Part shown: positions 166 through 22,479 of the stretch, piece after piece
Position numbering within the stretch: position 1 is the first letter of the stretch
How the letters are laid out: each line of letters opens with the position of its first letter
NCBI GenBank assembly: GCA_943704525.1
Contig: CALSCQ010001544.1
Location: 1-22,479, forward strand
DNA length: 22,479 nt
Source: Pigoraptor vietnamica
Taxonomy: Eukaryota; Opisthokonta; Filasterea
Reading direction: 5' to 3'
Made by a program: the position numbers and the translations under genes
The notes under the pieces: generated by a model
The model's database searches: none
Seen by the model: the letters and a program-made list of their open reading frames with translations, nothing else
What the model was told of the DNA's origin: nothing

Positions 166-2862
166 GTGACGGACTGGTGGGAGAAGTACGTGTATCTCCG
201 CGGGCGCAGTCCCATCATGATCAACTCGAACTACTACGGATTGGACAGTTGCAAGTGGGTGCCCTCCTGCCGCCCGATTGCGCGCGCGGCGGGCCTCCTT
301 GCCGAGATCGCCAAGTTCAAGCGCCTCCTCGACCGGGTGCGTGCGCAGGCGCTGCGTGCTGTGTGCGTACGTGCGATGAACGCAACATGTTGTGTGCGTG
401 TGTGCCTGCGTGCATGCGGTGAACGCGTGCATCGGTGGCAGTGCGCACACTGTTTGAGCAGCACCGCAACGCCTCTCCAGCCACTCGATTGTCCCATGTG
501 TCGCTCGCGTGCGTGCTCGCGTGTCTGATTGCGCGCGTCGCTCCCTGCGCAGGAGGAGCTGGAGCCCCTTGTGATACGCAACACCGTCCCCCTCTGCATG
601 TGGCAGTACGAGCGCATGTTCAGCACGTGCCGCGTGCCCCACCGGTGAGCCTTACCCTCCTTCCGTCTCTCAACGCTGTCCTGCGAGCGCACGGGGCGCT
701 TTTGTTCTGCTCTCTCTCTCTCCGTCGTAGTGAAGTCGATGGAATAACCGTCCATGATTCAGTCTGCTCACACACACGTCTCTCTGCCGTCCCCTCGCTC
801 CCTCGCAGCGACGGAGACAAGATTGTCCACTACGATCGCACCGAGTCGCAGCACGTGGTCGTGTGGGCCAAGGGCTCGTACTACTCTATCCCTTTCCAGC
901 ACCGCGATGGTGCGCTGTTGCACCCCGGCGAGTTTGAGCGGTGGGTGGAGCGCAACAGCCGTCGGTTCAGCGTCGCCGGATCGCATTGGAGGGGCTCATC
1001 ACCTCTTTGTACGCACGCAGGCTCCTGACACAGGTGCTTGAGGACGCCTCGAAGCGGACGATTTCGCAGACCGAGCGGACTGTGGCTGCGCTCACGGCAG
1101 ACGACAGGAACGTGTGGGCCGACGCGCGTGCCGAGTACTTCTCCACGGGTGTCAACAGGTGCGTGCACCGCTCGCTGTTTCGTCGTTTGCTTTGGGGTGC
1201 CATGTGTGCAAGAGCCTTGAACCCCAACCCTAACGTTTCGCAGGGAATCGCTGGATCTCATTGAGCGCGCCGTGTGCATCGTCGCGTTCGACGACGAGAG
1301 CCCTTCGCTGGACGACAAGGGTGCCACGCTCATGGGCCGCTCCATTCTCCACGGGTGAGCTGCGCAATGTGCAAGCGCACCGGCACTCGTTCGCACGTGT
1401 GTGCATGCTTTCACACCTCGAGAGATTCAGTCGCGCGCATCGCAAATGCTGACCCTTCGTTGCCCCCACAGCGACGGCACCAACCGCTGGTTCGACAAGT
1501 CCTTTGAGCTCGTCGTCTATGCGAACGGCAAGGCCGGCATCAACGCCGAGCACGCGTGGGCCGACGCCCCCGCCATGGGCCACATGTGGGAGTGGATCAA
1601 CACGGGCGAGGTCCTCGACGAGCTCTACAACGAAGACGGCACGCTGCGCGCGTCGTCCGCCTCGCGCCGCGCCCTGCCGAACCCCCAGCGCCTCGACTGG
1701 TCGTTTGGGCCGGCGGCGGAGGCGGCGATCGCCAAGTCGTACGCGAGCGCCGTCGAGCGCATCGCGGACTTTGACCTGCGCATCATTTACTTTGAGGATT
1801 ACGGCAAGGGACTTATGAAGAAGGCCCGCGTGTCGCCGGACGCGTACATCCAGATGGCGCTGGCGGTGGCCTACCGCTCGCTCAACGAGCGCTTCCCGCT
1901 GACGTACGAGTCGTCGATGACGCGGCTGTACCTCCACGGCCGCACGGAGACGGTGCGCCCCGTGTCGGACGAATCGGTCGCCTTTGTCAACGCCATGCGC
2001 GATCCGAAGGCAACGGTGGGCATCGCATGGCTCTTGTCTGTGTGGACCGCGTGTGCTGGGCGTGCCGTCTCTAGCATCGGTGATTGCGTTTGTGTTTGTT
2101 TGAAGAAGCGCCGGCTGATGTCGCTCTGTTCGGCTTGTGCGCAGCGCGAGGAGAAGCTCGCGAAGCTCCGCGCCGCGGGAGAGACGCACCAAAAGCGCTA
2201 CCGCGATGCCATGAGCGGCAAGGGTGCGTGGCACATTTGCGGCGGTGGCGGCTGCATATCGCGTGTGAATGGCCTTGGTTTCTATGATTGACTGCATCGC
2301 GCGTGTGCGCGACGATCGCCTTTGTGCGCGTGAATGCATCTCGTATGCGAACTAACGTGGTGCGTGCTGCCAATCGCAGGCGTTGACCGCCATCTGTTTG
2401 CGCTGTACGTGCTGTCGATGGGCCTGGGCACCGAGTCGCCGTTCCTCAAGGACGCGCTGAGCCAGCCGTGGCGGCTCTCGACGTCGCAGCAGCCGCAGCA
2501 GCAGACGAACCGGTGGGATGCGACCAAGGCCGACGCCCGCATCAAGCTCTGCCCCGGCGGAGGGTTTGGACCTGGTGAGTTGTCGTGCGTAAAAGTGCGC
2601 TGCGTCATGCAGTGTCTATCTCCCCTCAAATTGTGGCGTGTGGGCATGTCTCGGACAACCAGTTCTCCACTCTGACCGTCGCGTGTCCCCTGAAGTGGCC
2701 GACGACGGCTACGGCGTGTCGTACATGGTCGCGGGTGAGCAGAACGTGTTTTTCCACATTTCGAGCAAGAAGTCCTGCCCCACGACCGACTCGACAAAGT
2801 ACGGCGACGCCATTCTCCAGGCGATGGCGGACATGAAGGCGCTGCTCGTTGGCGAGAAGTGA
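166..2862 (+). CDS. CPT1: Carnitine O-palmitoyltransferase, CPT1-type (5' partial)
   Basis: Transfers long-chain acyl groups between CoA and carnitine, the entry step for mitochondrial fatty-acid oxidation. Nine exons can be joined in frame: 166-336, 553-644, 809-940, 1021-1158, 1244-1354, 1472-2015, 2145-2223, 2380-2574 and 2696-2862. They give 542 residues of the choline/carnitine acyltransferase domain; the N-terminus lies upstream of the window. Diagnostic pieces are [12 protein letters not shown] followed by NSNYYGLD in the first exon, [20 protein letters not shown] in the second, the catalytic His in [12 protein letters not shown] (codon 1551-1553), GRTETVRPV for carnitine/CoA binding, [12 protein letters not shown], and the C-terminal [16 protein letters not shown] split by the last intron. 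The N-terminal block favours CPT1 over CPT2. Because the N-terminus is missing, the outer-membrane anchor and malonyl-CoA regulation cannot be judged. The last intron ends in AAG rather than the usual CAG. The gene converges on CENP-T with 152 bp between stop codons. Confidence 0.95.
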
Positions 2863-4867: not shown

Positions 4868-7803
4868 ATGAGTCGCTTGTACGACACGGTGGAGCCGACC
4901 GTTATCGACGAGGACGTGCTGCGTCGCGCGGTGCAGGAGCAGACGGCGGCCGAGCGGGCCGAGGTGACCAAGAAGGAGGGCGTCGACTACAGGGATGTCA
5001 CGTGCCTTCGACTCGATTTTAAGAGTAAGTGGCTCTTTGGGGGTGTTGTGGACTGTGCAGAGTGCATCTCCTAGCGTATGGCCTTTGCAGTGGAATGGGC
5101 GTCGTTCTCGTAGGCAAGAAATGGAGAATGTGCTGTTTATCTCTCTCACATACACGCGCACTCACCGCACACAGACATTCTGCGCATCGACAACCTGTGG
5201 CAGTTTGAGAACCTCACGAAGCTCCAGCTGGACAACAACATCATCGAAAAGATTGAGAACTTGGACAGCCTCGTGAATCTCGAGTGGCTCGGTGCGTGTG
5301 GACGCGGGCTGTGCACGCAGGGGCGCTGTCGCTTGTCTTCCCTTGGCACCAGAGGGTTCTCATGTCTTGCGCGGGCATCCATATTGCTGACACACACACG
5401 CGCTGTTGTTTGTCTTCGCACGTACAGAATTCCTTCTAGTCTTCACGTGATCCATAGCTTCCCACACACACTCGCTGTTGTGGCTGCATTCTGTTTGCCA
5501 TGGGGCGGACAATAGTTTGAATCTAATCTCTGCGCCGCAATGCGCGCACCGCAGATCTCTCCTTCAACAACATACAGGTGATCGAGGGCCTGGATAAGCT
5601 CACCAAGCTGACGGATCTCACGCTGTACAACAACCGCATCTCACGCCTCGAAAACATGGACGCGCTGGTCAACCTCAACGTGCTCTCCATCGGCAACAAC
5701 AACCTCGAATCGCTCGAGAATGTGCGTGGGCCATTCGTACTGCGGCGGCACTGCCGCACTCGCACTGCTGTTTCTTTGCCTCTCCTCTGTGTGCCTTCGT
5801 GCACTCCACTGTCCCCTTGACATATTGTGTGTGTGCGCGGATCCGCTTGTTCACATGCTGGTTCCAGTATGTCAGTCTACATCGTGTGTGAGCCATCATG
5901 TGCGAGCAATGGTCGTGGTTTGTACTCTCCTGTGTGTGTGTCGGCGACGCTCATGATCGGCATGCACGCGCAGCTGACGTATCTCCGCCGCTTCGAGGCG
6001 CTGCGCTGTCTCAACATTGCCGGTAACAAGTTCTGCCAGGACCCCAATCACAAGGCGTTTGCCATCGCCATTCTCCCGGGGCTCAAGTACGTCGACTTCA
6101 GGCTAATCGAGGACCAGGCGGTGGGTCGCGGTCGCATTGGCCACTCGTATGTTGTGCCCATCTGTGCGCGATGCTTGCGCCTCACGTGCCGTTTGTGCCT
6201 TCGCGCCCGCACGTGCCGTTTGTGCCTTCGCCTCCTAATGTGCTCGTCACTCGATAATTCGCAGAGGACGGCGGCGTCAGAACAGTACCAGGAGGAGACG
6301 CTTGAGCTCGAAATCAAGGAGCGCGAAGAGAAAGACCGCCGCAAGATGGAGCGAGAGCACCAGGCGCTGCTGCTGAGGCACAAGGACGCGTACGTCGAAG
6401 GCCTCGTCGGCGAAGACTTTTTTGGCGAGATGCTTGCGGAGGACCCGGAGTATGCAAAGCTGAGCGCGCTCCCCGAGGCGCAGCCGCTCTTTGACGAGTA
6501 TCGCGCGCGATTTGTCGTCGTGTGCAACGAGACTATCGAGCACGCGCTGCGGCAACACGACGCGCGCACGGGGGAGCAGGAGCAGTTCACGCGGTGCATC
6601 ACGCGGGCGAAGGAGGAGAACCGGAAGGAGGCGGCGAAGAACATCGAGGCGTTTCAGTCTGTGCGCAAGAAGGTGCGCCCATGTTGTGCGCGTGGTCGAT
6701 TCAACTTGCCTGTGATTTTTGAGGTTGTCGCTCCGCGTGGGAATGGTTTGGGCGTCGTGTTGATCGTTGTGCGTGAGCTCCCGCTGCCCCTCGCCCGCAC
6801 CACGTGACCAACCTGTCTGTCTTGTCTCCGCTCGCAGCTGTTGCGCGACATTCGCAAGTCGAACGACCCAAAGACGACGGAGATGCTCGTACAGACACTG
6901 AGGGACCACATCCGGGGCCTCTGGACCTCGTTGATGGGCCTCGAAATGGAGCTCGTGGACCAGCTCGAGGTGCGTGTGCGTGTGTTGTGTGTGCGTGTGT
7001 GCATCCCGGATACGGGGGCATTGTGGGCGTTCACTGTGTTTGCGCATGGCTGTCTGGATTGGTGGCCCACTGCCCTTTGACTCGCCCATATTAAACTGGC
7101 CGTTCTTTGCCCACTCTAGGATGTCGTGAAGGAATTTGAGCGTAACATGTCGGACCTCACGACGTCGTTTGTCGAGCAAATCCAGGGACAATATCCGCAC
7201 TGTGCCTGCTTTCCGTGTGTCGTCCCCCGCCTGGCCTTCCCTCCCTCCAGCCATTGTGTGTGCGCGCACTTTGCGGACGTAATCGCCGTTCTCTCCTTGA
7301 CCGGCCATGCGTACTGTCGTGCAGCTGCGTGAGCTTGAGAACAACCATCACATCAAGGTGTCTGAGCTTGCGAACGCGACCATGGAGACGTTCTTGAAGA
7401 ATGAGATCGAGGGCGACATTCCGGAAGAACTGCGCCAGGTGCGTGGCCCGTACCTGTCACTGTAGTCCACTGCGCGCTCGTCGTCGATTGCATTTCTCGT
7501 GCAGAGAGTCGGTTCAATTTCGCCTGTCGGTTTCATGCGAACTTTGTTGTGTGCCTGCGTGCGCAGCTGTTTGTGGACAAGGACACGCTCGCGAACATTC
7601 TCAATGCGTCGCACGACGCGCACCTGGGCAAGATTGACGGGAAGGAGGACGAGATTGTTACGCGCGCAAACAGGCGCCTCGACGAGATTGTGAGCCGCGT
7701 GCACCTGGACGAGCTCACGCGCAACCGGAACCGCGTGGCCGAAATTGGCGCGCTCATCGACCACTTTGGCGCCGACACGGAGCACGACGATATGGACGAC
7801 TGA
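4868..7803 (+). CDS. DRC3: Dynein regulatory complex subunit 3 (LRRC48)
   Basis: Structural subunit of the nexin-dynein regulatory complex that links outer doublets in motile axonemes. Nine exons: 4868-5024, 5175-5291, 5555-5721, 5974-6120, 6265-6672, 6838-6969, 7120-7190, 7315-7438 and 7567-7803. They give 519 residues, close to the human protein (about 523). The N-terminus [18 protein letters not shown] is nearly identical to the animal start. Leucine-rich repeats follow (about residues 40-190, e.g. [19 protein letters not shown] and [17 protein letters not shown]), then an LRR cap and a long coiled coil. The C-terminus carries [17 protein letters not shown] and the EDEIVTR region. The seventh intron is not GT-AG but fits a U12-type AT-AC intron; only that choice restores both the frame and the family length. 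The gene is head to head with CENP-T and tail to tail with TMEM53. Its last codons, stop and early 3' UTR are duplicated downstream. Confidence 0.96.
6183..6231 (+). repeat. Direct repeat in DRC3 intron 4
   Basis: A 22-bp segment beginning CACGTGCCGTTTG occurs twice with a 27-bp period (6183-6204 and 6210-6231), inside the fourth DRC3 intron (6121-6264). The intron has no in-frame stop in the exon frame, so retention would insert 48 residues without shifting the frame. It is probably just a small tandem duplication. Confidence 0.75.
7191..7314 (+). other. U12-type AT-AC intron in DRC3
   Basis: A 124-nt intron that begins ATATCC and ends AC. The first six bases match the U12-type 5' splice site (ATATCCTT), and CTCCTTGAC at 7293-7301 matches the U12 branch-point consensus TTCCTTRAY at eight of nine positions. 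The branch A at 7300 lies 14 nt before the 3' end, within the short spacing typical of minor-spliceosome introns. Splicing here gives [20 protein letters not shown], the same length as the animal DRC3 segment. No GT-AG pair in the region keeps the frame without inserting extra residues. Confidence 0.8.
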
Positions 7804-7996
7804 TGCGCCAATACAGAGACAATTGCTCGTGAATTGCACATCCGACACAGAGTACGGCGGCACGCAGCACGACGACATGGACGACTGATGCGCCAATACA
7901 CAGACAATTGCTCGCACGGCATGGTGAATTGGGCTTCCAACAGAGAATTTCGTCGCGTGACATGCAGAGTACGGCGACACGGACACGGACAATTGC
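7782..7996 (+). repeat. 85-bp imperfect tandem repeat over the DRC3 stop codon
   Basis: The last codons of DRC3 (HDDMDD), the TGA and the following GCGCCAATACA..GACAATTGCTCG recur at 7867-7914 with only two differences over about 48 bp. GACAATTGC occurs at 7818, 7903 and 7988, giving two successive 85-bp steps; the third unit is strongly decayed. GAGTACGGCG at 7850 and 7967 is an additional shared word off the 85-bp register. This looks like a local tandem duplication that copied the gene's end into its own 3' UTR. Confidence 0.8.
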
Positions 7997-8118: not shown

Positions 8119-9161
8119 CTACGCCTGCGGCGCCACACTCCGCGCCCAGAAGGCGTCCAGTTCGCCCCAGTAGCGCTCCGGGTGCATGCGCATGTGGGTC
8201 ACGTGCTTGGACTTGTCCCAGGCGACAGCAGTGCACTCGATCCCGCGGCTGCGCCACTGCCCGATCACGTGCTCAATGTCTCGCGCGGGGGCCATGGCGT
8301 CGTCGTGTGAGTAGTACCTGTTGTGCGGCTGTGCGTGAGTGCGTGCGCACAAGCAACAAGCAAGTTGCATTCCCAATGCTACAACGCAACGGCAACGGAC
8401 GACATAGTGAGACGCGACACAGCGACACGCAGTGCCACCTACCAGAGGGACGGCGACTTGATCGTGTTAGTGTGGAACACGTGCGACGCGCCCTTGAGCG
8501 CCTCTGCGACGGGCTTTGCCGCCTTGAGGAACGCCGTGATGCTGCGCTGTGCGAGTGCCTGCTTCGCGGGGCTGTCGGGAAACAGGGCAATGGGCATCGC
8601 GAACGGAATGCCCCCGTAGTCGACGACGCTGTCAAAAACCTGTCCGCGCACGCTCGACTCGATCGTCGCGCACTCCGGACGCCGCTGTCGCAGCGCGGCC
8701 ATGCTCTGCAGGAAGAGCCCGTACATGTAACCGCCGGTCGAAAAACAGTGGAAGACGAGGCGCCGGTTGTGCAGGTTGTGCGCCGACATGTAATCGAGGA
8801 TCGCCTCCGTCCGTTGCCGACCGCGCGACGGCATCAGCACGTCCTGTGCCCGCGGCACGAGCGCGATCGTCTCCGCGCCTTTGCTGTGGTAATAGTCGAC
8901 GTACTTGGAGAGGTAGCGCGACTTGGCGCCCATCCAGCCAATCACAATGGCGATCGGCGCGTCCGGCGACGTGGCGTGATCGCGCGTGTGCACAAAGTCG
9001 TGCGCCTTTGCATGGCGCCGCGCAGACGACAGTCCCCCGTGCTGTCGGTGGTCCGTGGACGCGTGTGTGCAGCGAACAAGCTGCGAGGCATGATACGCTG
9101 CAGGCAGCCTGAGCACGGGCCGAGCGCGCGTGAGAGCGAGGAGCTGCAGCCTAAGCGCCAT
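8119..9161 (-). CDS. TMEM53: TMEM53/DUF829-family alpha/beta-hydrolase-like protein
   Basis: Two exons, 9161-8443 and 8317-8119, separated by a 125-nt GT-AG intron (phase 2), give 305 residues. From about residue 69 the sequence follows the DUF829 fold: APIAIVIGWMGAKSRYLSKY, a nucleophile-like elbow HCFSTGGYMYG with Ser141, DYGGIPFAMP, an acid strand YYSHDDAM (Asp245/246) and a C-terminal histidine segment KHVTHMRMHPERYW. These are the usual positions of a Ser-Asp-His triad, though catalytic activity of the animal TMEM53 family is not well established. The first 35 residues are rich in Arg, Ala and Leu with no acidic residue, which looks more like a mitochondrial transit peptide than the membrane segment of animal TMEM53. 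The start at 9161 was chosen for its GGAAATGG context and because the frame upstream looks non-coding. Head to head with the GDP-fucose synthase gene. Confidence 0.87.
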
Positions 9162-9531
9162 TTCCAACGATAAAAAGCACAGTCCAAGGCAGCAGTCCTG
9201 ACAAAACAAGCAAAGAAGAGCCCTGTGTGTGTGTGGTGGATGGGAATTTGAGTTGTGGATCAGCCACGCTGAACAGCGGCACGTGTGCGTGTGCAAGGCG
9301 TTCCGCCTCGGATCCGTAAGCCGATTGGCTCGGTATTTATAGTAACGCACTCATGTGGTTGATCACGTGACATACAGGTGTGTTACTTATGGCGTTACTC
9401 CAATCAGGTGGTGTTACACATTCATCCGGGGTGGAGGGCGTCGGCACATGTGATGTCCTTTTGTATGGTATTCAGCTGTCTCGACGTGAAAGCTGCCGTC
9501 GCACGAGCGAGTCTCTCTACTGTGTTAAGAG
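9162..9531. promoter_or_regulatory. Divergent promoter region of TMEM53 and GDP-fucose synthase
   Basis: 370 bp between divergent start codons. The minus strand has a TATAAATA box at 9334-9341, placed to serve TMEM53. The centre has ATCACGTGA (9362-9370) and several GTAAC/GTTAC pentamers (about 9341, 9381, 9393 and 9412). The plus strand has a CCAAT at 9400-9404 facing the GDP-fucose synthase start. No coding sequence was recognised. The arrangement of CACGTG beside GTTAC resembles the CENP-T/DRC3 promoter. Confidence 0.5.
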
Positions 9532-11379
9532 ATGGAGAAGAGCGCGACGATTCTCGTGACGGGCTCCAATGGCATGGTGGGCCGCCACCTTGTCAAGACG
9601 CTGCGGGAACAGGGCTACACGAAGGTGATTGCGCACACGCGCGCCGACTGCGACCTGGAGGATGCGAAGGCCACCGACGAGTACTTTGCGCGCCTGCGAC
9701 CGGACTATGCCTTCCTTATTGCGGCGCTGGTGGGTGGCATCAAGGCGAACATGTCGGACCCCGTGGGATTCCTCGCACGCAACCTGCGCATCGAGGTCAA
9801 CACGTACGAGGCGTGCCACAAGCACAAGGTGCGCAAGGTGCTCTACCTCGGCAGCTCGTGCATCTACCCGCGAGAGTGCCCGCAGCCGATGAAGGTGCGT
9901 GCAATGCGATATCGTACAAAAATTTCTCGTTGAGCAACTGGTCCCTGGTCTGTTGTGTGCCCGTATGAATTGCTTTTGCTCAGTGGCTTTAGTGTGTGCG
10001 TGAAGACAATTCGCTCGGACTCGCTTTGGCTGACTGCGCGGCGTCGCAGGAGGAATATCTCATGACGGGGCCTGTGGAGCCCACGAACGAGGGCTATGCG
10101 CTCGCCAAGATTTGTGGCTTGAAGCTCGCCGAATATTATTCTCGTGAGCAATTTGCGCGTCTGTCAGCGTGAGAGTGCTTTGTTTGTAACATGCGCATGT
10201 ATCGGCGTGAGAGTGCTTTGTGTGCCAGCGTTAGAGTGTTTTGGAAAGATACACATGTATCAGCGTGAGAGAAAGATGCGTGTGTGTCTGTGTGCGAGTG
10301 TTTGGTGTGTGCACGTGTGGCGCGTGGGAGCGTTTTGTGTAACATGTGCATGTATCGGCGTGAGAGTAATGCACATGTATCAGCGTGCGAGTAAGATGCG
10401 CGTGTGCGAGTGTTTGGTGTGCACGTGTGGCGCGTGGGAGCATTTGTACGTGCTTCATGCCTGACGCGGCGTCCTGCAGGCCAGTACGGCATGTGCATCG
10501 TGTGTCCGATGCCCTGCAACATCTACGGCGAGGGCGACCACTTTGATCTCGAGAAGAGCCACGTCTTGTCCGCGCTTGTCAAGCGATTTGTGGATGCCAA
10601 AAACAGCGGCGCCCGTGGGTACCTCTGCAATACGCATTACTGTTGGTGTGGGGACGTCCTCGGAAGTTTGCAAGCGCGTGTGCGTGTTCCTGCATTGACG
10701 GGCCTGTTCTCGTCGCCTGCCGCGCGCAGCCTCGGTGACGCTGTGGGGCACCGGCACCGCCCGTCGCGAGTTTGTGAACGTCATTGACGTGACGCGCTGC
10801 ATGCTGTGGATGATGGAGCACGTGACCACGCCGGACATCCACAACCTCGGCCCTGGCACGGACGTGTCCATTAAGGAGCTCGCCGAGCTTATTGCGGCAA
10901 AGGTCAACTATGCAGGTGCGCCTCCGCTTGCGTATTGCTGCCAGTTTGTTTTTTTGGTCGGTCTATTGTACGTGTTCGTGTATGTGTCCCGAGGTACGCT
11001 ATTGTACGTGTTCGTGTATGTGCGTGTGCGTATGCGCGCGCTGTGTGAGTGAAGTGTGCGTACGAGCCTAATGTATCACTTGCGTGTGTGTAGTATTTGT
11101 GCATTCGTGCGTGCATGCCCATGTGTGCGCGTGTGTGTTCTGTTAGCCGTTTACAAGTGCGTTCTCCACGTGACCACCATTGTTAACACCATGCCACTGA
11201 CACGCGGCGCAGGCACCATCGAGTGGGACCACACCAAGCCCGACGGCATGATGCGCAAGTGCCTCGAGGTGTCCAAGTTGCGCGCCAAGGGATTTTCCAC
11301 GGAGGTCGCCCTCAGCGACGGCATCGACGCCGTCATTGCCGAATACCACGCCGTGCTTGCGGGTGCAAAGGCGCACTAG
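9532..11379 (+). CDS. GFUS: GDP-L-fucose synthase (GDP-4-keto-6-deoxymannose epimerase/reductase)
   Basis: Converts GDP-4-keto-6-deoxy-D-mannose to GDP-L-fucose with NADPH, the last step of de novo GDP-fucose synthesis in the cytosol. Five exons, 9532-9894, 10050-10143, 10480-10614, 10730-10915 and 11213-11379, give 314 residues against about 321 in E. coli and human. All expected SDR features are present: the nucleotide-binding TGSNGMVG (Gly11, 14, 17), [15 protein letters not shown] with Ser108/Ser109 and Cys110, the catalytic Tyr137-x3-Lys141 in GYALAK, and His180 in [26 protein letters not shown] and the C-terminal [19 protein letters not shown] complete the substrate pocket. Each intron falls where the family sequence needs joining, e.g. 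SR|QYG and SGA|PSVTLWG. The second and fourth introns contain short tandem repeats. The gene is followed on the same strand by a glycosyltransferase-like gene that could be functionally connected. Confidence 0.97.
10160..10445 (+). repeat. Degenerate minisatellite in GDP-fucose synthase intron 2
   Basis: The word CAGCGTGAGAGTG or close variants recurs at about 10165, 10203, 10226, 10261, 10355 and 10381, often preceded by ACATGTAT. A longer block, GTGCGAGTGTTTGGTGTG through GGCGCGTGGGAGC, occurs near 10291 and again near 10403. Together they fill most of the 336-nt intron 10144-10479. The repeat is GT-rich on the transcribed-sense strand, as in other introns here. Confidence 0.75.
10963..11022 (+). 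repeat. 36-bp-period direct repeat in GDP-fucose synthase intron 4
   Basis: A 24-bp stretch beginning CTATTGTACGTGTTCG occurs at 10963-10986 and again at 10999-11022. It lies inside the intron 10916-11212 and leads into a GTGTGCGT-rich segment. No coding role is seen. Confidence 0.8.
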
Positions 11380-11762: not shown

Positions 11763-14400
11763 CCAGCAACACGAGGGTGCGTCTGACGCTCCTCGTGGCC
11801 GTGTCCGTTTTCGCCGGCTTCTTCACTGCGCGGCAACTGCCGAATCGCAACTCCCTCGTGACCAGCGCAGCCCAATCGCAAGCAGAATCGCCACGCGCCG
11901 CATCAGAATTGCGCGCTGAAATCGCCGCGCTTTCGCATCAGCTCGTCGACTTGCACGCGCACGTGGCCAAGTTGACGACGGCACAGGGCTTAGGCGGCAA
12001 ACCCGCGCCAATTCCGCGTCCCGCTGCCCATGGCAACTCTCATGTTGGCGGAAGCGGCGACGCCGAGCAGAAGAAAAGCCCGGACCACGCGCTTTCAGGG
12101 TCCAGCGTAGTCCGCTTTTCGCACAGCAGCACAAGCGAGCCGCTGGCCAGCACCACGGTACCTGCGGTGCGCGCGAGTACGGCGCCGCCAGCTTCCACTC
12201 ATGCGACCGCAGACCTAGGTAAGCCGCATTCTTGCATTAGCTGTTGTGCAAAGCCCCCCGGGCTGAGTGCAGCCATTATGACTGCCCACCGCGCGCGTTC
12301 GCTGTCGTGCGCGAACTCACGCGGGCGACTGATGCACCGGCGTGAGCAGGTTCTGATGCGGACGTATCGATGGGCGACGCAGCGCCCTTGACGGACGAAG
12401 AGGAGTACTGGCTGAACACAACTGCGCCGCGCAACGCTTCCCGGCACTACGGCTTCGACCCCCCGCCAGACGACGGAAGTGCCATTGTGCCGAGGCGCGG
12501 CACGTGCTTTCAGCGGGGCGAAGTGGAGGTCCTGCGGGCGTACCAGAAGGCGGCCGCGCAACCGTCCGTCGTTCTAGTGCTCGGGGGCGGTGGGCCGCTG
12601 GGACGCGCCCTCGTGTCGTCGATGGAGACGCTCGGCAAGCGCGTGCTGAACGTGCCGTCGAAGCTGATGCTCGACCTTCAGTTTGCCTCTGACACGGCGC
12701 TGGCGCACCATCTGGGCGGCGTGCGCATCGAGCTCGCGTTCCTGCTCGCGTGGAACTACCAGCCGGACGCGGAGAACGCCGCGATGGTTGCGAACGTCGT
12801 GCGCTACCTCAACTCGAGGCGAATTCCCTTTGTCTTCTTCAGCACGGTGCACGCGGCGACCAAGACGCTCCCCTTTGGCGCTTCCAAGGCCGCCGCCGAG
12901 GAACGCGTCTTCAATGTCGGTGGGGGGCACGTCGTGCGATTGCCGGACGTGTTTGGCGTCGAGGACTGGCACGTGGGCGACTCGAAGCTCCACTACATTG
13001 GCGCCGTTTTGAACAAGTGCGTGCGCGGAGACACGGCGCCCATCGCACCCGACTTCAAGATGGACCTGCTGGGCGCGCCGCGGGCCGCTCTCTTTGCGGA
13101 GGACGTCGCGGACGCCATCGTCCGCGCGGCGTTCGCGGGGGAGGGCAACACCTTTGCCTCGATGCCCATACTGTCCACCGTGGTGCCGTCGGGTGATGGC
13201 TGGACGACCGCGGCGGGCGTGGCGCTGGCCATTAACGACGCGTGGCGCGCGCTGTCGTCCGAGTGGCAAGCGCAGGGCGAAGTTGCCGATTGCGTTCCAC
13301 AGCGCGAGGTCGAATCTCTGAGGAACCACGCGCCATGGACGGGAGGGATCGGCGACGTTCCGAAGGCCCAGGGGGTCGTGCTGCGTGTGTCCGCGTCGGC
13401 GCCGTTGCGAGACCGCATTTCGGACCTTCTGCGCCTCTACCACGACAGGTACCTGACGTGGAAGGAAGTGGCGGAGCGACCTTACGTGAGTTTTATAACG
13501 GGCGTGCGCGCGGACGACTACGCCGGGAACATAATGGATCGCGTTCAGATTGCCATCGATGTCGTGGCCCACTTTTGCGACATGTACATGGTGTCGTACG
13601 AGCTGCTGTTGGTTGAGTGGAATCCGCTGCCCGACCGCCCTGCCGCGCGCGAACTTGTAATCCCGGCATCAATGCGCGGCCGCGTGCGTTTCATTACGGT
13701 GCCGCCTTCGGTCCACGCGTCGCTCGGCTGCCAAGCGAAAATGCTGGACATGTGGGCGAAGAACGTGGGCATGCGGCGGGCGAAGGGCGAGTACCTACTC
13801 AGCTTCATTCCGGACTCGCTGTGGGACGAGAGCATTTTCGAGTCGTTTGCGCTGCGACGGCTTTCGCCGGACACTCTCTACCTCGGATCCCGCTTCATGA
13901 CGGAAGCCGCAATGTCGACAGACGTTCGCGTGCTTGGTCCGGGTGCCGTGCTTGCGTGGGTGCGAGACCGTGCGTTGCGCAACCCCGAGGATCGCGCACG
14001 ACGGGACTCGCAGTATGCGCTGTACGGTCGCAATCGGCCCGCGAGCCAGCACAGCGAGGCAACAACCGTTGCTCCGGGGGACTTTGTGCTGGCGCACCGC
14101 GGCGTCATCGCAAACAAGATCCGCGGCTACGTCGAGACGTGCGACGTGCGTCACGTGGACGCCCTCTTTATCTACCAGGCGTTTCACAAGGGGCTCGCCG
14201 TGTCGTACATCGGCGACATTTACCACCAGCGTCACACTGTGATGGAGTCGCTCCACTTCCCCGTCGACAAGAAGGTCATGGCGCGCATGCTGGAGGACGC
14301 GTCGTGCGCGGGCATAGTCCGCATGCAGCTCGTGCGCCTGCTTGCGACGGACGGGGACTGGGGCTTCAGGAGGGAAGTGTTCGTGGAGACTGCCATTTGA
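11744..14400 (+). CDS. Membrane-anchored SDR-glycosyltransferase fusion protein
   Basis: Two exons, 11744-12218 and 12350-14400 (phase 1 intron of 131 nt), give 841 residues. Residues about 13-28 form one hydrophobic segment after a short basic N-terminus, the layout of a Golgi type II signal anchor, followed by a Ser/Thr/Pro/Ala-rich stem to about 160. Residues about 230-480 look like an extended SDR (nucleotide-sugar epimerase) fold: LGGGGPLGRAL carries GxxGxxG near 237-243 and FVFFSTVHAA the strand before the active site. The usual YxxxK is FGASK (Phe334, Lys338), so the catalytic Tyr is absent. Residues about 535-805 resemble a GT-A glycosyltransferase-like domain, with PYVSFITGVRADDY, YELLLVEWNPLPDRP, VRFITVPPSVHA, MWAKNVGMRRAKGEYLLSF and PDSLWDE where a DxD-type site would lie. 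Acceptor and donor are unknown. Lies 365 bp after GDP-fucose synthase on the same strand; no frame interruptions. Confidence 0.8.
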
Positions 14401-18645: not shown

Positions 18646-21600
18646 CTACGCATCCTCCGGTTTGACATTGGCAGCGCCCAACTGATGTCGGTGCTCGTGC
18701 ACGGCGACCGCAGGGCCATCGGACGCATCAACGTCCCCGCCCGCGCCCGACGAGCCGCCCAAACCGAGAGAGTGGGTGTGGGCGTGGGCGTCTGGCGGGC
18801 CCTGACCCGCCGTTGCACCCGCCGGAACCAAGCCCCGCATGAAGAGTCCCCGCACGCGCGCAATAAACGCGGCCTGCTCGTCCTCCGAGACGTAGATGCG
18901 CGCCGCAAGCGACTCGCAAAGCTTGTCGAGGTACGTGAGGGGCTCACCGCGGCGATAAGGTCGCATCATGTCCACGCGGCTGCAAGACGAACGAATGGTG
19001 AGCACATAACAATCGCCAAAAAGGGGAGAGGGAAGAATAAAATTCTTCGCAGAACCTACCCCTTTGTCAAACGGTACCGCTGAACAATTCGCGCCACGTC
19101 CACGAAGAGTTCAGGGTCAAGAACCTCGGCCGGCGCAATGGACTTCTCACACACATACGGCAACCCTAAATTGGGCGAACGAAAAAGTGGCGTTATTCTC
19201 TCGTACAAGTGGAGTGGAGGTGCTAAGAACAGACAGTCGACAAATTTCAGCTGCCCAAAAACGCCATTCGCAGTACAAACGACAGTTAAATGCGCAGACG
19301 CCAGCCATTCGCAGTACAAACGACAGATAAAAGGACAGACGCCAGCCGTTCGCAGTACAAACGACAGATAAAAGGACAGACGCCAGCCATTCGCAGTACA
19401 AACGACAGATAAAAGGACAGACGCCAGCCATTCGCAGTACAAACGACAGATAAAAGGACAGACGCCAGCCATTCGCAGTACAAACGACAGATAAAAGGAC
19501 AGACGCCAGCCATTCGCAGTACAAACGACAGATAAAAGGACAGACACTGCAGGGCCACCCACTGTACTGGTGCAGCGCGTTCCACTCGCGACCGATGGTC
19601 ACAAAGTTGAACACGGACACATTCGAGGGGTGCTCTGGGTCGAAAGGGCTGACGATGACGCCGATGAAGGGCTCCAGGCCATCCCCACGCGCAAAGAGGG
19701 CCTGCAGACGGATTGGCGGGTGTCAGCACCGCGGCTCAGCAGGTCGCAACCGCACACAAACACCGCAGCACAGGGCTTACCTGATAATTGGTTTGGTTTT
19801 CTATGTCACGCAGAGAGGGGTTAGGGGCGAACGACGGGTGCGAGTGGTACCACCCAACAACGCCGAGTCCAGCGGCTGCAAAAACGTCGCGCGCCTCCAT
19901 TTCCGACACGGGATCCATCTCGCACTGCATGCCGGTACTGAGCGAGTTGCACGCGAACGCACGAACCACGCGCAGCACGCCCTCGGTCTCGTCGTACAAG
20001 CCGCCGAGCAGCCCGATGACTTCCGTGTGCGCAATGTGGGCGTGCACGTCCATGACCAGCATGGCACCCGACCCAACGACGACACGGAACGGCGCCGGGT
20101 CCGAAGGGGTGTACCGCCGGCACGCAACGAGGGAAAAGGGATCTCCCGCACCAGGCTCGCCGTCCACTTCTTCCCCTCGCGCAGCGCCCGTCCGGCCAGG
20201 CATCGCTTCGTCTGCAAAATACCGCGCGTTGTATGCGGCGAGGCGCTGCTGCTCCTGCTGCTCCAAGCGGGCCAAACGCGCCTTCCTGGCGTCGCGGGCC
20301 ACCAGCGCCTGTGCCTGCTCGGCGCCGTGCGTGATCGTTCGACCGTCTCGCTCTTGCTCAAACACCCACTGCCCGTGCTCGTCGCGCACGCGCCGCCGTC
20401 TAGGGCCGGCGACGGCCTCATCCGCGTCTGCAGCGGCCGACGCAATGGCCTCACGGTCAGCCAGTGACATCCCTCCGCGCTCGTCGTCGCCATGGTGAGG
20501 TTGGGTGCGCCGCACCCGCGGATAAGAGGCACGCGATACTCCTCCAACCACGTCGCCGCCATTGATCGCGCCCACGGCTTCCAGATACGCGTGTACACGG
20601 CCGATCGCGTTGACGTCGCCGCAGTCCTTCAGGCCGGGGCGCACGGACGTCTTCGTGAGGTACTTCGGGCGGCACTTGCGCCAGGCCGCGAGTATGTAGT
20701 TGCGTATTCGCACGTAGCGCTCGGGCGTTTTGGAAGGGTGGCCCGAAAAAAATTCGCGGTTTCGCGCCATTTCGTGCTCCGTGATGCCGTTTTCGTCAAT
20801 TTCGACGGGCTCTTCCTCCGTCGGACTGTTTCCTTCCGGCTCTTCCTGCGCCGCGGCCGGCTGCTCGTGACTCGAGTCCGCTTGGCCGCCGTCCCTCTCG
20901 CTGTCCGAAATGCGCGCACCCTCCTCTCCCGCGCCCTCAACAAGGGGCTCCGCAGCCGTCAACGGGGCGGGACTCGCGGCAGCCGCCGGCGCCATCGCAG
21001 GCGGCTCCTCGTCCCCAATATCAATGTCCGCGTCCTCCTCCTCCTCCTCCTCGCCGTCAGCCCCCGCATTGCCCCCATCGTCGCCCGCATCGCCCCCTTC
21101 GCTCTCGTCTTGCACACGATCCGCGGAACGCCTCGGATCGCCACCCGCAGTCGCACTTGCAGCACGGTTGGCAGGCGTCGAAACGGCCGCCCCACCGGCG
21201 CTTCGCAGGACCCCTTCACCCTCCGCAGCGGCGCCGGCCTGCCCCTCCAGCCGTCGGAAATACTGGCGCGCAAAGTTCTTCACCTGCAACGCCGTTCGCG
21301 TGGCCACGTGACCGGCGATGCGCTTCCACTTGCCCCTGCCAAACTTGTGCAGCCCCCGCTCAAAGAGGACGATCTCCGCCGCGCTCCACGGCACATTGTG
21401 TGACTGCGGGCGCTGCTGCGGGGCGGCCGTCGTCGTCGCAGGCAAGGCATCTCGCTCCCGGCCCTTGTCCCGCCGCGCGCGCCCTCCCTGCGACCCCTCG
21501 CCCCGGCGCGCCTGCTTGGTGACAGGCGCCGCGACGTCGTCCGGTGGTGGGTCCGTGCGCGGCCGCTTAGAGCCCGCTGCAGCGCCCCCCGTCCCCCCGG

Positions 21601-21895
21601 AAGTGCCATTGAAATAAAACTCCTCTTCGAGCAACATGCTCTCGATCACGGCGCGGCTGCGCTCGTCGACATCGGTCGTCTCCACCCCCCAGTGGGCATC
21701 CAGCATCCACGTCGGCTCCGCAAGTTCCGCCAGCAGTTGTGCATTCGCAGCGCCGCGCGACGGAGAGAGCGTCAGCCCTCCCGCTGGAACAAGAAGGCCT
21801 GCTGTCGTGGGCGACCGTCCCTGCGTCGCGTGCGCAACGTTCAGCGCATCTGCGCCGCCCGTGTCGCTCACGATGTCAATGTCTTCTTCGTCCAT
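18646..21895 (-). CDS. MYSM1: MYSM1-like SANT-SWIRM-JAMM histone H2A deubiquitinase
   Basis: Four exons, 21895-19781, 19701-19563, 19165-19060 and 18979-18646, give 897 residues (human MYSM1 about 828). Family role: removal of monoubiquitin from nucleosomal histone H2A, in the nucleus. A SANT/Myb domain occupies about 167-214 (NVPWSAAEIVLFERGLHKFG to KNFARQYF). An acidic, Ala-rich linker with a run of Glu and Asp follows. A SWIRM domain covers about 374-448 (REFFSGHPSKTPERY, RNYILAAWRK, GRVHAYLEAVGAING). A basic coiled coil (about 525-560) precedes the JAMM/MPN+ domain at about 600-770. Its zinc site is intact: Glu625 in TEVIGLLGG, then HSHPSFAPNPSLRD with His684, His686 and Asp697, plus Ser694. 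Downstream exons continue IGVIVSPF, then YR|LPYVCEK across intron 2, as in animal MYSM1. Intron 2 contains a 41-bp minisatellite and is open in the exon frame. Confidence 0.93.
19262..19548 (-). repeat. 41-bp minisatellite, seven copies, in MYSM1 intron 2
   Basis: Seven head-to-tail copies with start points exactly 41 bp apart (19266, 19307, 19348, 19389, 19430, 19471 and 19512, counted at the ATTCGCAGTAC word, GTTCG in the third). Inner copies are almost identical; the first is diverged (GTTAAATGCG) and the last is cut off. The array lies within the intron 19562-19166. There are no unique spacers, so it is not a CRISPR array. All three minus-strand frames are open through the array. Confidence 0.95.
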
Positions 21896-22479
21896 TCCCC
21901 ATTCACGCGCAGGCCGCCGAGCGGACGACGTGGCAAGTGTGCTGTATGGGAGCCGACATGCGTCTGGGGTGCGCGCGTGTGAAGATCAAACTGTATCTCT
22001 GCATTTTCAATCGTTGTCGCCGTTTTTTGGCGCCCTCTCAAGGACTGAAAGGCTGTTTTATTTGAAAATCGCGAAATTTCTACCGTAAATTGGTTTCACT
22101 TCAATTCAGCGGAGGCAGATGACTGTCAAGTCACAATACACGTCACGATTACGCCATTTCAACAAGAGACGCCTGCGGCTGGACCCCGATTGCATATGCC
22201 TTTTATTGTAAATTTTCAATTTACAAGAGACGCCACGCTGTGGCTGGACCCTGCGGGTGAGTCCCAATGTCAATGCCGCAGTCCACGGAGCCTGACGTGA
22301 CATACCATGACAGTCAATTGTACGAACACATCGGCACACATAATACGCAGTTCTGAATAAGCAGTCCATCACCTCTCGCACCAAATGCACGCTGCTTCAG
22401 AGACACACTCAGTCTGACTCGCCGACACTGGCACACTGACACATGACAGACACAAACACACGCAAACACGCACACACAT
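21896..22479. other. Upstream region of the MYSM1-like gene
   Basis: 584 bp with no gene that I can support. It is more AT-rich than the rest of the window, notably 21980-22110 and 22190-22225. A GCGAAA word within AATCGCGAAATTTC (22067-22080) resembles an E2F-type core. Two similar segments, AAGAGACGCC...GGCTGGACCC, flank an AT-rich perfect inverted repeat (22206-22226). The last 80 bases drift into CA-rich sequence. The minus-strand open frame at 22106-22390 has no recognisable features. Confidence 0.45.
22161..22252. repeat. Direct repeats flanking a hairpin-forming inverted repeat
   Basis: AACAAGAGACGCCTGCGGCTGGACCCC at about 22161 and TACAAGAGACGCCACGCTGTGGCTGGACCC at about 22222 are imperfect direct copies about 61 bp apart. 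Between them, TTGTAAATT TTC AATTTACAA (22206-22226) is a perfect 9-bp hairpin with a three-base loop, immediately abutting the second copy. No transposase or known element end is recognised. Confidence 0.6.

Follow-up and report, generated by a model that had tools for sequence, protein, structure and literature searches.

The flagellar gene DRC3 in a 22,479-nucleotide stretch of the Pigoraptor vietnamica genome (contig CALSCQ010001544.1 of assembly GCA_943704525.1; referred to here as the window) raises the question of why its reading frame breaks within a conserved segment, and whether the break marks an intron of the minor (U12-type) class that this genome is equipped to remove. A sequence-only reading had proposed that excision of a segment running from ATATCC to AC repairs the frame, that a branch motif lies 14 nt before the 3' end and that the conserved segment thereby regains its full length of 17 residues. 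The gene model and alignments bear out each of these proposals (Table 1). Translation of the unspliced region breaks, removal of the 124 nt restores the frame, and the resulting 17-residue segment aligns without a gap to 13 DRC3 orthologues, chosen from the best 120 listed, and to three distinct DRC3 sequences in the PDB. The complete product shows 54% identity to its best database match over 99% of its length, and the best matches are from animals (up to 54% identity among the matches listed).

Intron 7 reads ATATCCGC...CTCCTTGACCGGCCATGCGTAC, with GCGTAC as its last six bases, and the stretch CTCCTTGAC spans 7293-7301, its last A falling at 7300. The other seven introns of the gene are all GT-AG, with the donors GTAAGT, GTGCGT (four times), GTGGGT and GTGCGC. 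The combination of ATATCC, branch motif and AC end occurs once in the window and in none of 200 dinucleotide-preserving shuffles (both strands), and a looser form (RTATCC...A[CG]) occurred 0.01 times per dinucleotide shuffle of the window.

Table 1. Features of the window and minor introns elsewhere in the genome whose joined exons give a protein match spanning the junction
Feature	Position in window or locus	Strand	Description
DRC3 gene	4868..7803	+	9 exons, 519 aa product (gene model)
DRC3 exons 1-5	4868-5024, 5175-5291, 5555-5721, 5974-6120, 6265-6672	+	gene model
DRC3 exon 6	6838-6969	+	gene model
DRC3 exon 7	7120..7190	+	gene model
DRC3 exon 8	7315..7438	+	gene model
DRC3 exon 9	7567-7803	+	gene model
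DRC3 intron 7, AT-AC minor (U12-type)	7191..7314	+	124 nt, phase 2; gene model, alignments, enumeration of alternatives
5' splice site ATATCCGC	7191..7198	+	+7 G and +8 C, against the usual ATATCCTT; sequence and genome-wide motif count
Branch-site motif TCCTTGAC	7294..7301	+	presumed branch-point A at 7300; complements GUAAGGA in the U12 gene
3' splice site AC	7313..7314	+	14 nt downstream of the presumed branch-point A
Carnitine acyltransferase (Pfam)	1359-2291	+	neighbouring coding stretch
DUF829 (Pfam)	8439-9350	-	neighbouring coding stretch
Epimerase (Pfam)	9529-9933	+	neighbouring coding stretch
Long frame, weak epimerase match (Pfam)	12346-14400	+	neighbouring coding stretch
AT-AC intron	L080		PDEase, Pfam across junction
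AT-AC intron	L105		HIT, Pfam across junction; FHIT by PDB
AT-AC intron	L019		SGF29, Pfam across junction; donor ATATCCCC
AT-AC intron	L035		MCM-binding protein, Pfam across junction
GT-AG intron	L058		EXOSC1, Pfam across junction
GT-AG intron	L040		S4 domain, Pfam across junction; IMP3 by PDB
GT-AG intron	L063		RasGEF, Pfam across junction
GT-AG intron	L050		urocanase, Pfam across junction
GT-AG intron	L031		cation ATPase, Pfam across junction
GT-AG intron	L021		PIH1, Pfam across junction
GT-AG intron	L026		AP-1 mu, PDB only (E 2.4e-31), no Pfam match
GT-AG intron	L064		CYFIP1, PDB only (E 2.2e-17), no Pfam match

Enumeration of all excisions that keep the frame free of stops yielded 1152 candidates, which were ranked against one orthologue, the best 40 then being scored against all 13. 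The top eight of these 40 all remove exactly 124 nt, and 7191-7314 ranks sixth among them (182.2 against 182.8 for the best, a margin of 0.6), so that the end points are not fixed by score alone. It is, however, the only one of the eight with known splice ends, the other seven having neither AT-AC nor GT-AG nor GC-AG. A conventional U2-type intron, GT-AG or GC-AG, with its donor at 7202, 7204 or 7219 and its acceptor at 7324, could be suggested by the CAG at 7322-7324, which lies just before a phase-0 exon start, and by the GC and GT dinucleotides nearby. The best of the 15 GT/GC-AG alternatives (7204-7324, with a GC donor) nevertheless scores 12 points lower against the 13 orthologues and adds a residue, donor 7219 costs 17 points and adds six residues, and donor 7202 joined to 7324 breaks the frame; moreover, the candidate donors GCCTGC and GTCGTC differ from the donors of the seven GT-AG introns, making a U2-type intron very improbable. 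That there is no intron, the frame break in the unspliced translation reflecting a pseudogene or an assembly indel, is hardly credible, given that the rest of the 519-residue frame is undisturbed, its introns being normal, and that no simple error accounts for a 124-nt insert bearing three minor-intron motifs.

The features expected of U12-type AT-AC introns are largely present: the intron starts with [A/G]TATCC (ATATCC at 7191), carries a TCCTTRAC branch motif near its 3' end and closes with an AC that restores both reading frame and protein. The full donor RTATCCTT is not found, as GC occupies 7197-7198 in place of TT at +7/+8, and the intron is therefore classed as a variant rather than as a standard member of the U12-type AT-AC group. 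This departure, which had escaped the sequence-only reading, is common to other minor introns of the genome. There is high confidence that intron 7 is real and belongs to a known kind, the minor introns; its anatomy predicts that it would be spliced in the cell.

Some further features of the window are recorded here. The end of the DRC3 coding sequence with its stop and following bases, TGGACGACTGATGCG, at 7793 is repeated 85 nt downstream at 7878. On the reverse strand, 19736-21985 has its best matches among Myb-like, SWIRM and MPN domains 1 (MYSM1) proteins of early-diverging fungi, and the open frames at 19150-19620, also on the reverse strand, are built of the repeated motif CPFICRLYCEWLASVLLSVV..., which suggests a tandem DNA repeat rather than a gene.

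If intron 7 is a minor intron, the corresponding spliceosome should be encoded in the genome; U11, U12, U4atac and U6atac had all been predicted. The assembly (32.5 Mb in 1395 contigs) was searched with Rfam models alongside 14 control genomes. Single genes were found for U12 (73.8 bits; Rfam gathering threshold 53), U6atac (81.4 bits; threshold 33) and U4atac (64 bits; threshold 53), and none of the three had a match in the control genomes. The U12 gene retains GAGUAAGGAAAAUAAC, and its GUAAGGA pairs with the branch motif. A U11-48K gene is probably present, as judged from a candidate with CHHC finger scores of 24.0 and 28.2 bits (Pfam cut-off 21.1) and an RDYKRRRQ stretch as in the PDB 48K chain; the match of the whole sequence to that chain is weak (E 2.7e-4), and the Pfam family, which also covers GTSF1, matched one of the 14 control genomes as well.

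The part of the prediction that the searches did not bear out was U11 itself, which was not found with Rfam RF00548 at either E 0.001 or E 10, a negative that does not prove absence. The genes for U12, U4atac and U6atac (L001, L002, L003) have in common an element, GTCCCAYAAG, 67-72 nt upstream (GTCCCACAAG 67 nt upstream of U4atac and U6atac, GTCCCATAAG 72 nt upstream of the U12 match). It is probably an snRNA promoter element of this lineage, a reading based on its having also retrieved two TATA-containing genes that resemble Y RNA. This element followed by GCGG gave 14 matches (11 in the reversed control), with nothing resembling U11 among the five of the 14 inspected; followed by an Sm-like site, it gave a single match, the U12 gene itself (control 0), and no U11. 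The pattern GCGGR plus an Sm site gave 43 matches (24 in the control). The inspection of these covered the first 31 of the 43, eight of them for the promoter stretch only and the other 23 in 22 stretches, and revealed no U11; agreement with the promoter element never exceeded 7 of 10 bases, and cmscan, run on 20 of the 22, reported no snRNA.

The two genes retrieved with the promoter element resemble Y RNA or stem-bulge RNA, and each has the element, a TATA box and a T-run. L118 (C284:19080-19300, reverse strand) matches RF01656 with 41.4 bits (gathering threshold 38), and L119 (C1110:23880-24100, reverse strand) matches RF00019 with 29.7 bits, below the gathering threshold of 38. The assembly also contains mitochondrial COX1 (L005; C295:3234-4574, reverse strand), with 12 in-frame TGA codons that are presumably read as Trp. 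It is 99% identical to one public sequence, the next matches being at 61-74%, and Triparma, Pyropia and Fonticula are the only named organisms among the 120 matches listed.

The unusual donor was then placed in a genome-wide context by a branch-site search that set no condition on the donor (TTCCTTRAC N7-14 YAC or YAG). The YAC form gave 65 matches against 94 for the reversed pattern and the YAG form 52 against 79; in the absence of any excess over the reversed patterns, most of the 103 distinct branch-site candidates obtained by retrieving the flanks of every match are due to chance. The DRC3 intron is missing from the 103 because a C stands immediately before its branch motif. Despite this background, 20 of the 103 sites are preceded by RTATCCGC at a distance of 25-300 nt, against a mean of 0.72 and a maximum of 4 in 300 mononucleotide shuffles, and the motif is absent both from the reversed stretches and from their opposite strand. 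The classic RTATCCTT precedes none of the 103 candidates. Among the 27 RTATCC sites, positions +7/+8 are GC in 20, CC in three and AC, GA, TC and CG in one each, with +6 always C. The first base is A in seven of the 20 RTATCCGC sites and G in the other 13. There is a trend for AT donors to occur with AC ends (five of the seven were retrieved solely by the AC pattern) and for GT donors to occur with AG ends (10 of the 13 by the AG pattern; Fisher p 0.06). Matches to the donor-plus-branch pattern in viral contigs, among those listed, were judged to be chance given the size of the collection.

At 24 loci outside the window a branch site is preceded by RTATC[CT][GC]C, and 16 of these loci were joined and tested, the other eight having no recognised join or no clear 3' end. 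The joins imposed AC ends on AT donors and AG ends on GT donors. Matches to known proteins that span the junction were obtained for 12 of the 16, 10 by Pfam above the cut-off and two by PDB alone (Table 1). In the remaining four, an RFWD3 match spans the junction and scores below the cut-off (L113), an AAA_12 match ends short of the junction (L015) and two joins gave no protein match (L020 and L108). In these 12 sister introns and DRC3 together, +8 is C in all 13, +7 is G in 12 (C in SGF29) and +6 is C in 12 (T in the cation ATPase). A shift of the minor donor consensus in this lineage is well supported at the sequence level.

A shift of this kind would be expected to leave a trace in the snRNAs that read the donor. 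The U6atac gene has AUGAGCCGAGAG where the Rfam consensus has AUGAAAGGAGAG. In the register that is assumed here, with U6atac positions 16 to 12 opposite donor positions +4 to +8, the changed base at 13 pairs with +7 G and that at 12 with +8 C, and position 14, G in the consensus and C here, falls opposite +6 C so that a pair is lost. Since this change costs a pair, the compensation is partial at best. The gene's own U6atac forms four of five pairs with its own donor, with an internal mismatch at +6 (-1.7 kcal/mol), and three pairs, one of them U-G, with the classic donor (-0.6 kcal/mol); the consensus U6atac forms three pairs with the new donor (-3.3 kcal/mol) and five with the classic donor (-4.7 kcal/mol). 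RTATCGGC, which would be the perfect partner of this U6atac, was not seen among the 103 branch-site candidates. An assembly base error, a second, unassembled gene or a reading of position +6 by U11 only could each explain the mismatch there. No U6atac of relatives was found in the genome contigs searched, and a candidate in a viral contig, which had no Rfam match, was set aside as a chance match. The U6atac changes may thus be partly compensatory, and a matching snRNA change is likely but not settled.

Two other accounts of the donor merit consideration. The consensus could have shifted while the U6atac changes represent drift or an assembly artefact, the donor being read mainly by U11 and the 48K protein. 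In agreement with this, one of the three U6atac changes loses a pair, the computed pairing is weaker than that of the consensus U6atac and a single gene copy was found; against it, the other two changed bases restore Watson-Crick pairs with both of the changed donor positions. This account is possible, if rather unlikely. Alternatively, the donor might merely be relaxed, with +7/+8 having lost constraint and drifted to GC in a GC-rich genome, as might be thought from the GC content of the window (55-68% by kilobase) and from the SGF29 donor. Relaxation should produce a mixture, yet 20 of the 27 sites have GC, the seven others not necessarily all being real; the shuffles, which keep composition, yield 0.72 on average; and U6atac is altered at exactly the positions that pair with +7/+8. 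Relaxation is accordingly improbable.

The best explanation, which is very probably correct, is that 7191-7314 is a minor AT-AC intron in a genome that encodes a minor spliceosome, that the donor has moved from RTATCCTT to RTATCCGC and that U6atac positions 12 and 13 have changed with it. On the pathway of the known minor spliceosome, U11 and U12 would jointly bind the donor and branch site, U12 pairing with the branch motif in its usual form and U11, then U6atac, reading the donor; U6atac would take over the donor and the intron would be released in the usual two steps. What the present analysis itself contributes to this scheme is the anatomy and the base complementarity. A U11 with a matching 5' end would be expected. 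The broader proposition, that the minor 5' splice-site code was rewritten as a block from TT to GC at +7/+8, with U6atac 12-13 and presumably U11 matched to it and the U12-branch-site code left ancestral, is somewhat more likely than not to be right.

Canonical AT-AC U12-type introns, as described in the available parts of the sources, resemble the DRC3 intron in the ATATCC start, the TCCTTRAC branch and the spacing of 14 nt between the branch A and the AC end, and genomes that contain them likewise have U12, U4atac and U6atac; they differ at +7/+8, with TT where DRC3 and most other minor introns found here have GC. The RTATCCTT rule for U12-type introns is given in the available part of PMC2846911, which also describes Monosiga brevicollis as being without U12 introns and snRNAs. 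Rhizophagus irregularis similarly combines an all-round minor spliceosome with a position outside animals and plants, but its minor-intron motifs closely follow those of animals and plants, according to the accessible portion of PMC10639083, unlike the shifted donor here. Physarum polycephalum is likewise reported to have divergent minor sites, as other papers cite it (Larue et al. 2021, in the accessible part of PMC10228655). Its minor introns are far more numerous than in all others (PMC10639083, as available in part), with more than 20,000 reported (Larue et al. 2021, via the accessible parts of PMC10639083, PMC10228655 and PMC8329584) against the 20 candidates found here under a strict branch pattern. 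The strings ATATCCGC and GTATCCGC were not met in the part of the topic's literature covered, and none of the titles and abstract openings surveyed dealt with a displaced minor donor accompanied by an altered U6atac, most subscription journals lying outside the scope of both.

Such a change bears on how fixed splicing signals are. The minor 5' splice site ranks with the best-conserved signals of eukaryotic genes, and each minor intron requires its recognition first by U11 and then by U6atac. A change in this site should therefore be hard, and a block shift in one genome would indicate that such a change is achievable. It would also raise the questions of which partner changed first, of whether the number of minor introns must first be small and of what role each donor position plays. 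Classifiers based on RTATCCTT could overlook introns of this type and report a genome as being poor in minor introns. If true, the block rewrite would be a natural example of small RNAs that changed in concert with their scattered targets.
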